DNA of 64,000 bases from Dehalococcoidia bacterium (GTDB lineage: Bacteria > Chloroflexota > Dehalococcoidia > Lucifugimonadales > UBA3495): NCBI GenBank assembly GCA_012959605.1, contig DUCU01000032.1, positions 17,258 to 81,257 of the forward strand. The letters are read 5' to 3'. The position numbers were made by a program, and so were the translations under genes. Below the pieces are notes generated by a model. The model ran no database searches. It saw only the letters and a program-made list of their open reading frames with translations, and was not told the DNA's origin. Shown in pieces: positions 30,405-45,285 of the stretch. Positions within the stretch are counted from its first letter, which is position 1. Every line of letters begins with the position of its first letter.

Positions 30405-31994
30405 ATGACGTCAAAGCCTTCCCGGCCTGCTACACGCGTCTCGGTTGAGTCCCTGGATCGGTTCCGGGCCAACCTACAATCTCTGGTTGCCGAGAAGGCC
30501 AAGAAGCTGCCGAGCCTTCGCTACTGCGACCTCCGTATCGAGGTTCGAGAAGAGAAGGGCGCTCTGGCGGAGAACGGGGCCGAGAAGGCAAGCTCCGAAG
30601 ACTACACTTTTGATTTCGGCGTTAGGGCCATTGCCGGGAGACGCACCAGCGCCTCTGGTTATTACGGTCGAGTTTTGGGGACCACTGATCTCGATCGGCT
30701 AGAAGACGTGGTTTGGGACGGCATCAAGCAAGCCTACAACCGAGCTCGAGCTAGCGCCCGTGAAAAATCGCGGGCCATGGGCTGTTTTCCAAACTTGGGG
30801 AGCAGCCTCACCGCTGGTGACCTGGCTATCGTGCCAGTCCACCAAGACACCATCCCAGCCATCTACTCATCTGATCCAAGGCAAGTCCCTCTTGGCGACA
30901 CAATTGCGATGGCCGTGGACGGCTGCAAAGCTATGCAGAGCCAAGGGAGTAACATCGTTTACTCGGCCGCATCAGCGTCGACATTCTTGCTCCGGGAACT
31001 GTTTTTCAGCTCCGACGGCGCAGACATTGACCAGAGTTTCGCCCAGACAGAAGGATTCGCCATCTCCATCTGCAGCGGTGAGCACGGCAATTTTGAACTG
31101 TATGACTTCACCGGCCACCAGCGCGGCTGGGAGGTTTTAACAGACGGCTACACCAAAGGGCCCATCGTGCTGCCGAACTTCATAGACTTCTGCAAGAAAC
31201 TGGGCGCAGACGCGGTGGAAGTGTCCGCTGCACCACCGCTAAAACCACCGGACAAAGAAGTAACGGTCGTCACCAACCCGCACTTTAATACCCTACTGAT
31301 CCATGAAGTCGTCGGTCATCCATCCGAGTTGGACCGGGCATTGAAGTATGAAACCGGTTATGCGGGACGCTCCTGGTTCTTGAAGGACATGCAGGACAAC
31401 CAACTGGGCAAGCAGATTGCTTCGCCAATGGTCACCGCCTACTCGGACCCAACCATGGAGGGCTACGGCTCTTTCAAGTACGACCATGAAGGAACCCCAG
31501 CCCGCCGCGCCTACATCCTCAGAAACGGCGTATTGGAAGAGTTTCTGAACAACCGCCAGACAGCCGCCATCATGGGGGTAGAGTGCAACGGATCGGCCCG
31601 CTCCACAGAAGCTCAATTAGTGCCGTTGATCCGTATGACCAACACCATCTTCGGCCCTGGCGAACAAGACCCTCAGAGCATCATCTCTGAGGTTGAAGAC
31701 GGGTATTACATCGACGGACACCGGACTCCTTCAATCGCCGAGTCCAGAGAGAACTTCCGCATCACAGCGGTCAAGGTCTATGAAATTAAGAACGGCCAGT
31801 TGGGACGGCTATACCGAGACGGCGGTATAACGTCGGACAGCCGAGACTATTTTATGTCAATCGACGCGGTGGGCAATGACCTGCGGGTGAACCCCATACC
31901 CAATTGCGGCAAGGGACAGCCCATGCAGGCCAAGCGCATGAGCAACGGTGGGCCCACTATGAGAGGAGTCGCTCGTTTAACTGGCCCAGGCTAA
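30405..31994 (+). CDS. tldD: TldD-family metallopeptidase (catalytic subunit type)
   Basis: LLIHEVVGHPSELDRAL (HExxxH) and TldD-like C-terminal region. Confidence 0.9.
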   Translation: MTSKPSRPATRVSVESLDRFRANLQSLVAEKAKKLPSLRYCDLRIEVREEKGALAENGAEKASSEDYTFDFGVRAIAGRRTSASGYYGRVLGTTDLDRLEDVVWDGIKQAYNRARASAREKSRAMGCFPNLGSSLTAGDLAIVPVHQDTIPAIYSSDPRQVPLGDTIAMAVDGCKAMQSQGSNIVYSAASASTFLLRELFFSSDGADIDQSFAQTEGFAISICSGEHGNFELYDFTGHQRGWEVLTDGYTKGPIVLPNFIDFCKKLGADAVEVSAAPPLKPPDKEVTVVTNPHFNTLLIHEVVGHPSELDRALKYETGYAGRSWFLKDMQDNQLGKQIASPMVTAYSDPTMEGYGSFKYDHEGTPARRAYILRNGVLEEFLNNRQTAAIMGVECNGSARSTEAQLVPLIRMTNTIFGPGEQDPQSIISEVEDGYYIDGHRTPSIAESRENFRITAVKVYEIKNGQLGRLYRDGGITSDSRDYFMSIDAVGNDLRVNPIPNCGKGQPMQAKRMSNGGPTMRGVARLTGPG

Positions 31995-32090
31995 TCAAGG
32001 CTATGAGAGGCGTGGCTCGTTTAACAGGATCCGGCTAATCAAGGCTATGCGGGGCGTCGCTCGCCTGACCGGCCCCGGCTAATCAAGTCG
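31959..32090 (+). repeat. three tandem 44-bp imperfect repeats spanning the tldD 3' end
   Basis: Units begin at 31959, 32003 and 32047; each reads ATG...TAA as MRGVARLTG(P/S)G*; unit 1 is the true tldD terminus. Confidence 0.95.
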
Positions 32091-32104
32091 AATTTGAGGA
32101 ATTC

Positions 32105-33169
32105 ATGACGGCAGCAGTAATAGTAATCGGCATAGTCGCACTGTTATCCACAGCGTTGGCTATTATCCTCATGCTGCGCTTACTCAAATCTCAAGAAAGC
32201 CCAAAAAACGAAGCGAGCGCCCTTGGCCACCAAGTGGGCGAGATTCGCCAGGGTATAGACAAGGTCAATGAAGCCATCCAGAACCTGAACATTGACCGCG
32301 CCAAGCAGTCAGAGAGACTGGAAACCATGCTTTCCAGCCTGAATACAAGCTCGTCAGCCCTCCAAAACATCCTGGCCAACACTCAAGTTCGAGGCCAATG
32401 GGGTGAGCGGATGGCCGAAGACGTTTTCCGTCTAATCGGCTTTGTGGAGTCGGTGAATTACACCAAACAGAGCACCACTGCCGACGGCAGTTCCAGACCG
32501 GATTTCACCATATTGTTGCCAGATAACAAGAAGCTCAATATGGACGCTAAATTCCCACTAACCAACTATATGAAGCTGGTGGAAGCTGAGTCTGAAGCAG
32601 ACATCCAAGAGCACAGCCGCTCTTTCCTGCGGGACGTGCGAGACCGTACCCGAGAAGTCATTGGCCGAGATTACATTAACCCTGAAGACAATACCCTGGA
32701 TTACGTGCTCGTTTTCATCCCCAATGAGTCCATGTTCCATTACATCCAACAGCACGGGGCAACGCTGGTGGAAGAAGCGCTGCGAAACCGGGTGGTGCTC
32801 TGCTCACCCATCAGCTTGTTCGCCATTCTAAGTGTGATCCGCCACGCCTTGGACAACTTTGCCATTCAACAGGCATCCAACGAGATCCTTTCAGAGTTGG
32901 CCAGCTTTGACCGGCAATGGGAGCGATTCACCGCCCAAATGGACCTGGTGGGCAAGCGTTTCGAACTGGCCCAGAAGGGGTTCGAAAACCTGGCCGGGAC
33001 TCGACGTCGCGCGCTTGAAAGGCCGCTCAGCCGCATCCAAGCCATCCGTCAGCAACGTGGAATCCCCGACGCCGCGCCATTTGAAGCTCTGGGGGAAGCT
33101 CTGGACGAACCGTCAGAATCAGACGAAGCATGGGCGTTGCAGGAAGCTGAGTCGCCAGATGAAAAATAG
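32105..33169 (+). CDS. rmuC: DNA recombination protein RmuC
   Basis: N-terminal TM then coiled coil; NTQVRGQWGERMAEDVFRLIGFVE, LNMDAKFPLTNY, YVLVFIPNESMFHYI. Confidence 0.93.
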   Translation: MTAAVIVIGIVALLSTALAIILMLRLLKSQESPKNEASALGHQVGEIRQGIDKVNEAIQNLNIDRAKQSERLETMLSSLNTSSSALQNILANTQVRGQWGERMAEDVFRLIGFVESVNYTKQSTTADGSSRPDFTILLPDNKKLNMDAKFPLTNYMKLVEAESEADIQEHSRSFLRDVRDRTREVIGRDYINPEDNTLDYVLVFIPNESMFHYIQQHGATLVEEALRNRVVLCSPISLFAILSVIRHALDNFAIQQASNEILSELASFDRQWERFTAQMDLVGKRFELAQKGFENLAGTRRRALERPLSRIQAIRQQRGIPDAAPFEALGEALDEPSESDEAWALQEAESPDEK

Positions 33170-44358: not shown

Positions 44359-44520
44359 GTTTTTTCCTCCGGTCAAAGTCCAAAACTATGATAAACCGAG
44401 TGTCAAGATTTAAGGTCGCAAAGCGCCTAAAATGATACTCAAGAAGATGCGGCATTCACTTTCCAGGTGGCTAATGATATTATTAGACGGTTGCGATTCG
44501 TCACTTCTCGCATCAACCCT

Positions 44521-44606
44521 ATGTGCACTAATTCCCAAAGGTTAGCCGTAGCCCTTCTGGCCCATGCGCACTAATTCCTAAATATTGGCCGCAGCCCTTC
44601 TGGGAT
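44521..44606 (+). repeat. 43-bp imperfect tandem duplication in the rplY leader
   Basis: atgtgcactaattcccaaaggttagccgtagcccttctggccc / atgcgcactaattcctaaatattggccgcagcccttctgggat. Confidence 0.8.
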
Positions 44607-44640: not shown

Positions 44641-45285
44641 ATGACTACGAACTCAGTCCAGATTGAACTAAATCCCAGAGAACTAATGGGCAAAAAGGTA
44701 GCGCGCTTGCGCCGCGTCGGAATTGTCCCTGTCCATCTTTACGGACCCGGAATGGAGCCTCGGTCACTACAGTGCCAAGCCTCCACTCTAATCCGGACAC
44801 TGGCCACTGCCGGTGGTGCCACACCCATCCACATCACCATCCAGGGTGAGTCTGGCACGCATTTGGCCTTTGCCAGAGAGATTCAGTGGGACCCGATGCG
44901 CGACGACCTGTTGCACGTCGACCTGCTGGCCGCAGACATCAGCAGGCCGGTAACCGCCCAGGTTCCGATTATACTGACTGGCGAATCTGCCGGCGCACGC
45001 TTGGTCAATGGCACAGTGATGCAACAACTGCGCACTGTGGATGTCCAGGCATTGCCCCTGGAGATGCCAAACCAGATTGAAGTTGATCTAGCGATCATGG
45101 AAAACGCCGACTCGGTGATCCGTGCCAGTGACCTGGCGATTCCTAGTTCTGCCACACTCTTAACCGATGCCGAAGAGCTGGTGGTCAGGATTGAGCTTCC
45201 CAGAGTCGCAGAAGAATTCACCGCAGCCGAAGGCGGAGCCGAAGAGAGTGGAGACGCCCCTGCCGAAGAATCATCCGAGGAGTAG
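44641..45285 (+). CDS. rplY: 50S ribosomal protein L25/general stress protein Ctc
   Basis: 214 aa; RELMGKKVARLRRVGIVPVHLYGPG; acidic C-terminal tail. Confidence 0.92.
   Translation: MTTNSVQIELNPRELMGKKVARLRRVGIVPVHLYGPGMEPRSLQCQASTLIRTLATAGGATPIHITIQGESGTHLAFAREIQWDPMRDDLLHVDLLAADISRPVTAQVPIILTGESAGARLVNGTVMQQLRTVDVQALPLEMPNQIEVDLAIMENADSVIRASDLAIPSSATLLTDAEELVVRIELPRVAEEFTAAEGGAEESGDAPAEESSEE

Follow-up and report, generated by a model that had tools for sequence, protein, structure and literature searches.

Ghost copies of the tldD 3' end in a SAR202 genome and their possible origin from diverged alleles

The repeated tldD end and its codon pattern

The window analysed here, a stretch of 64,000 nucleotides, belongs to a 2.81-Mb MAG of 134 contigs from SAR202 (Chloroflexota), with SAR202/Dehalococcoidia MAGs as its closest named relatives. 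This genome is labelled G000, and the labels G001-G010 stand for congeneric genomes. The forward strand of the window carries a TldD-family gene (30405..31994; ORF of 529 aa; Pfam PmbA_TldD_3rd, E 4.9e-43), orthologues of which are present in nine other genomes of the genus. The next gene on the same strand is rmuC (32105..33169; Pfam RmuC, E 7.6e-62), which adjoins tldD in congeners too and is followed by a second TldD/PmbA-family gene. The end of tldD is repeated as an array of three head-to-tail 44-bp units at 31957-32088, spanning the last 12 tldD codons plus TCAAGG. On the forward strand, unit 1 (31957..32000) is the functional, in-frame 3' end of tldD and encodes MRGVARLTGPG and a stop, followed by TCAAGG, unit 2 (32001..32044) is a ghost end reading MRGVARLTGSG and stop, and unit 3 (32045..32088) is a ghost end reading MRGVARLTGPG and stop. 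A forward-strand spacer of 22 nt (32083..32104) separates the stop of unit 3 from the start of rmuC. TRF reported a period of 44 bp, 3.0 copies and a score of 178 for the array, the identity between the 44-bp units is 80-86%, and both unit junctions are identical, AATCAAGG being followed directly by CTATG. An earlier note on this DNA had described three tandem 44-bp copies of the tldD 3' end; its sequence and coordinates were reproduced, with the best register lying 2 nt upstream of the ATG-based one used there. A degenerate 11-codon pattern of the tail occurs at three places only in the 2.81-Mb genome, namely in the three units, and a search of viral contigs with the tldD tail pattern gave zero matches.

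The differences between the units follow the tldD reading frame. Units 1 and 3 differ at eight nucleotides of the 36-nt ORF, all of them synonymous (aga/cgg, gga/ggc, cgt/cgc, tta/ctg, act/acc, cca/ccc), and at two further positions beyond the stop. One of the six ORF differences between units 1 and 2 is non-synonymous (P to S), as is one of the nine between units 2 and 3. Read in the other two frames, each pair of units would show 4-7 amino-acid changes. When the same number of substitutions as between units 1 and 3 was placed randomly, the unit 1 peptide was kept in at most 2.5e-5 of the trials. A fairer null model allows only synonymous change in the gene copy and free decay of the neighbouring ghost; it expects 52-57% non-synonymous differences, against which the 0/8 of units 1 and 3 has a p of 0.001-0.003 and the 1/6 of units 1 and 2 a p of 0.06-0.10. 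Hence, units 1 and 3 are unlikely to have diverged in place as a gene and its neutral copy, and the array fails the prediction of neutral tandem duplication that differences should be blind to codon position. The note's view of the variation as coding-constrained, including the synonymous changes between units 1 and 3 and the single P-to-S change in unit 2, is upheld by these results.

The distance to rmuC bears on which of the three units was there before the others. From the tldD stop to the rmuC start there are 22 nt in G003, G004, G005 and G010, and in the window the same distance is found for unit 3. The spacer behind unit 3 is identical to that of G003 at 13 of 22 positions (shuffle p 2e-4), compared with 9 and 10 matching positions for the sequences that follow units 1 and 2. 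Unit 3 is thus probably the resident, ancestral tldD end, and because it holds the ancestral distance to rmuC, units 1 and 2 represent added material.

Two other sets of repeats in the window were noted. At 44518-44603 two 43-bp direct repeats (36/43 identical) lie in an intergenic region upstream of a gene at 44641; no coding frame is evident and the repeats are perhaps regulatory. The region 955-2833, with a duplicate at 1390/1768, holds a run of small paralogous ORFs with FIDWHPAPRRQY- or FSDYHxAPRRQYV-like motifs, which were classified as complete tandem paralogues and not as ghosts.

Gene-end copies in congeneric genomes

The tldD end can be read in ten genomes of the genus, and three of them, that of the window, G009 and G001, have extra copies of it. 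In all readable congeners rmuC directly follows tldD, and no element was found at tldD in any relative. The ghost of G009 (RGVARLTGPG and stop) and its gene end are distinguished by five codon changes, stop included, each of which is synonymous, and the ghost is not a tandem duplication, because the sequence behind the gene is unrelated to that behind the ghost. The 63-bp copy in G001 seems to be an ordinary tandem duplication that has decayed, rather than a ghost; its changes are mostly non-synonymous, with 2, 4 and 1 mismatches by codon position, and hence plain tandem duplication happens at the tldD end as well. The earlier note had named randomly substituted copies in relatives as evidence against its interpretation; such a copy exists in one relative, G001.

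The sister of the window genome, G007, has a single tldD end and no extra copy. Its tldD (L040/L012) has lost the usual stop and continues as SLSGNQRI into sequence that is spacer elsewhere, up to a later stop. G000 and G007 are joined in the trees of tldD, rmuC, the second tldD-family gene, ilvD, malic enzyme and an enoyl-CoA hydratase gene, and they form a sister pair throughout in separate analyses of the tldD halves and the neighbouring genes. A distant donor for tldD was considered and found unsupported, the tldD tree being in agreement with those of its neighbours; the donor would therefore be a close unsampled lineage, or the tail alone was exchanged. A working tldD end equal to unit 2 or unit 3 was found in no strain among the congeners compared.

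Further ghost ends were found at a binding-protein gene (G000:C19), an SDR gene (G009), a gene ending in RIDRTVN and stop (G001:C30), ilvD (G005, G002) and a gene of 623 aa (G001:C26). The ghosts of the binding-protein and SDR genes show the same codon bias as the tldD ghosts. Moreover, where the binding-protein gene encodes isoleucine, its ghost encodes valine, the usual residue in the genus, which is what a real allele should show. All ghosts are short, about 24-104 nt, and their homology covers the coding tail and ends at or just past the stop codon; a separate core is not visible.

The clearest cargo lies behind ilvD. In G006, ilvD is directly followed by a ribbon-helix-helix antitoxin-like gene, while in G005 and G002 it is followed by a UbiE-type methyltransferase gene, an ilvD ghost and then the antitoxin-like gene of G006; the ilvD junction is common to the G002 and G005 assemblies. 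Judged from these sequences, the polarity is clear, with an empty site in G006 and filled sites in G005 and G002. Among the congeners, the interval after ilvD is empty, or holds the antitoxin-like gene, or the methyltransferase gene, ilvD ghost and antitoxin-like gene together (L136 G005:C159, L199 G002:C45, L137 G006:C55). At G001:C26 (L174, 7367-8390), an insert of about 920 bp that contains a HicB-like gene stands behind the 623-aa gene and is followed by a 104-nt copy of the gene's end with 95% identity. No integrase was found in the inserts at ilvD and G001:C26.

Other repeats were set apart from the ghosts. Plain tandem duplications of gene ends also exist at thrC of G000 and at one gene of G002. 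At the thrC end (L161, G000:C18, 18809) a diverged copy follows with a 15-nt insertion (KPSMFAFEVTLGEEMFKEAK and stop), and it looks like a tandem duplication rather than a codon-biased ghost. The first scan also let through noncoding repeats in L146 and L169, which were later rejected as ghost candidates, and a match to MEITLAVHQ at +738 in G003:C34 was excluded as doubtful.

The comparison of gene 3' and 5' ends drew on 1715 predicted genes in 2.09 Mb of sequence from the genus. Only 3' ends gave codon-biased ghosts; the matches at 5' ends were tandem paralogues or unbiased repeats, and all larger ones, considered as candidate ghosts, turned out to be tandem paralogues. The ghost scans select on amino-acid identity and hence favour synonymous pairs; in a repeated, amino-acid-blind test the bias was weaker, with 20/34 mismatches at third codon positions in short-offset 3' duplications (7 genes) and 11/32 in short-offset 5' duplications (4 genes). 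A lean to third positions is thus seen in the 3' set only, and the numbers are small. Three of the seven short 3' duplications in the genus lack a codon bias. In about 0.25 Mb from other genera, a sample of little power, codon-biased ghosts were not found. It is conceivable, though we regard it as quite unlikely, that the 3' gene ends of this genus are entry points for small DNA pieces, with the incoming piece restoring the frame by its own gene end and leaving the old end behind, through an undescribed 3'-end-specific mechanism.

Origin of the ghost ends

The explanation to which we give slightly better than even chances, on the basis of the sequence comparisons, is that units 2 and 3 are non-functional scars, i.e. 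3' ends of diverged tldD alleles left by recombination, with unit 3 as the resident end. Recombination with a diverged allele would put a new tldD end and a few nucleotides past its stop ahead of the last ~38 nt of the resident gene; the new end would take the reading frame and the old resident end, unit 3, would become a ghost. A second, out-of-register exchange at this junction would displace unit 2, the end that had come in first, from the frame and bring unit 1 into use. The ghosted ends would have been functional until recently, either in this lineage or in one of its alleles, and related events elsewhere in the genus may have carried cargo such as the methyltransferase gene at ilvD (G005 and G002) or the HicB-like gene in G001. 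We infer that homologous recombination was the agent, that the events took this order and that close relatives were the donors. The earlier note had proposed ghost ends arising by successive replacement of tldD. Its core, that the units are copies of diverged-allele ends and not decayed slippage duplicates, gains support from the synonymous-only differences between units 1 and 3, the position of unit 3 and the independent ghosts in G009 and at other genes, whereas the replacement of tldD itself does not, given that G000 and G007 are sisters in tldD and five neighbouring genes. Two independent replacements also fit less well than one founding event and an out-of-register exchange, since the junctions are identical.

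Several observations do not sit easily with recombination between alleles, among them the lack of codon bias in three of the seven short 3' duplications and the absence, from the congeners compared, of a strain with a working end equal to unit 2 or 3. Identical junctions are also what plain tandem duplication gives, and the tldD tree, congruent with those of its neighbours, gives no sign of its own that an allele was replaced. ComEC was detected in five of the 12 genomes, which do not include G000 or G009, and six of the 12, again not G000, gave a full-length DprA domain; the entry of DNA therefore lacks an explanation, although assembly gaps are a possible reason for the missing proteins. Furthermore, exchange of alleles alone does not predict that all ghosts are short; long ghosts may be absent through deletion of long direct repeats. 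Altogether, an allelic origin of the ghosts is supported, and the mechanism proposed for it is tentative.

For the window itself, the strongest rival is an array that arose by plain tandem duplication and whose ghost units were later overwritten, without insertion, by gene conversion from the tldD ends of other strains. The exact head-to-tail 44-bp period, the identical junctions and the plain gene-end duplications at tldD of G001, thrC of G000 and the G002 gene all agree with such a history, but conversion tracts covering little over 36 nt would be needed, and tldD of G009, the binding-protein gene, SDR and ilvD stay unexplained, with their differing following sequences or cargo in between; we see it as possible but rather improbable. 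Still less probable, and in our view unlikely, are attachment-site scars of lost integrative elements that inserted at gene 3' ends and restored the end in an SGI1- or CIME-like manner. Such elements would account for the restriction to 3' ends, the restored gene ends, copies of 24-104 nt and the cargo at ilvD and G001:C26, and tyrosine recombinases exist in all genomes of the genus; however, the inserts seen hold no integrase, at least six unrelated genes would have been targets, the homology stops at the stop codon, as coding conservation predicts, and not at a visible fixed core, tldD has no element in any relative, and its tail sequence was not found in the viral contigs searched.

An artefact was also considered, because the sequence comes from a MAG and the three units resemble alleles, so that alleles of co-occurring strains could have been concatenated during assembly. 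Yet the array junction AATCAAGGCTATG, which is present twice, matches no single-copy tldD end seen, and ghosts recur in other assemblies, including the ilvD junction shared by G002 and G005, making this very improbable. Translation and selection of the units as 11-aa mini-ORFs is barely plausible, and the earlier note had also held it to be less likely: ATG, stop and codon-constrained differences are intact in all three units, but the internal ATG is lost in both the G001 and G009 copies, most congeners have no extra copy, and AAGG stands just 2 nt ahead of the ATG. An RNA element is disfavoured, because neither an RNA family nor an unusual structure was found.

Significance and comparison with known systems

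If recombination between diverged alleles is the true origin, the history of allele exchange and of gained genes in uncultured bacteria would be readable from ghost gene ends as from fossils. A single scar would reveal where and in which direction an event took place and which allele was resident, where whole-gene trees show nothing. The ghost scan is simple to apply to any genome, and it could serve to quantify recombination in lineages about whose gene exchange little is known. Should the bias towards 3' ends persist when more genomes are sampled, a mechanism will be needed for it. In a partial search of the literature, which does not prove absence, we found no account of gene-end scars that are short, allelic and free of cargo.

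Among known systems, insertion with long target duplication (Nobusato et al. 2000) was reported from H. pylori and, as far as PMC1643837 and PMC3031569 describe it, involves DNA that lies in or beside a gene, is flanked by direct repeats of the target and has no transposase of its own, which the cargo at ilvD and G001:C26 fits. An insert between target repeats that is absent in a relative is seen at ilvD, and at tldD of the window the insert consists of units 1 and 2 alone. The window units (44 bp, 80-86%) fall short of the near-identical duplication of about 100 nt or more that belongs to this system, and only G001:C26 comes close to it (104 nt, 95%). In contrast to that system as described, the short copies here (24-104 nt) occur at the 3' ends of genes and are allelic, with synonymous differences, instead of identical, and several sites have no cargo. 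The minimal mobile elements of Neisseria (Saunders and Snyder 2002), in so far as PMC2649163 presents them, are small cassettes without mobility genes that vary between the same two conserved genes. The interval between ilvD and malic enzyme resembles one, with alternative cassettes after ilvD and none seen between tldD and rmuC; however, the tldD site is without cargo, and such elements are not defined by ghost ends in that account. Homologous recombination within the flanking genes would be expected of their exchange, and here the two tldD halves and the neighbouring genes gave one and the same sister pair, G000 and G007. Cis-mobilizable elements (CIMEs) and the accretion of att sites (PMC7563491) also yield copies of gene 3' ends that flank decayed cargo, and serial copies are possible, but here there is no integrase or relic of one, no common core is visible, and the targets are many and unrelated. 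Of these systems, insertion with long target duplication and minimal mobile elements come closest to the ghost ends, and CIMEs are a formal alternative.
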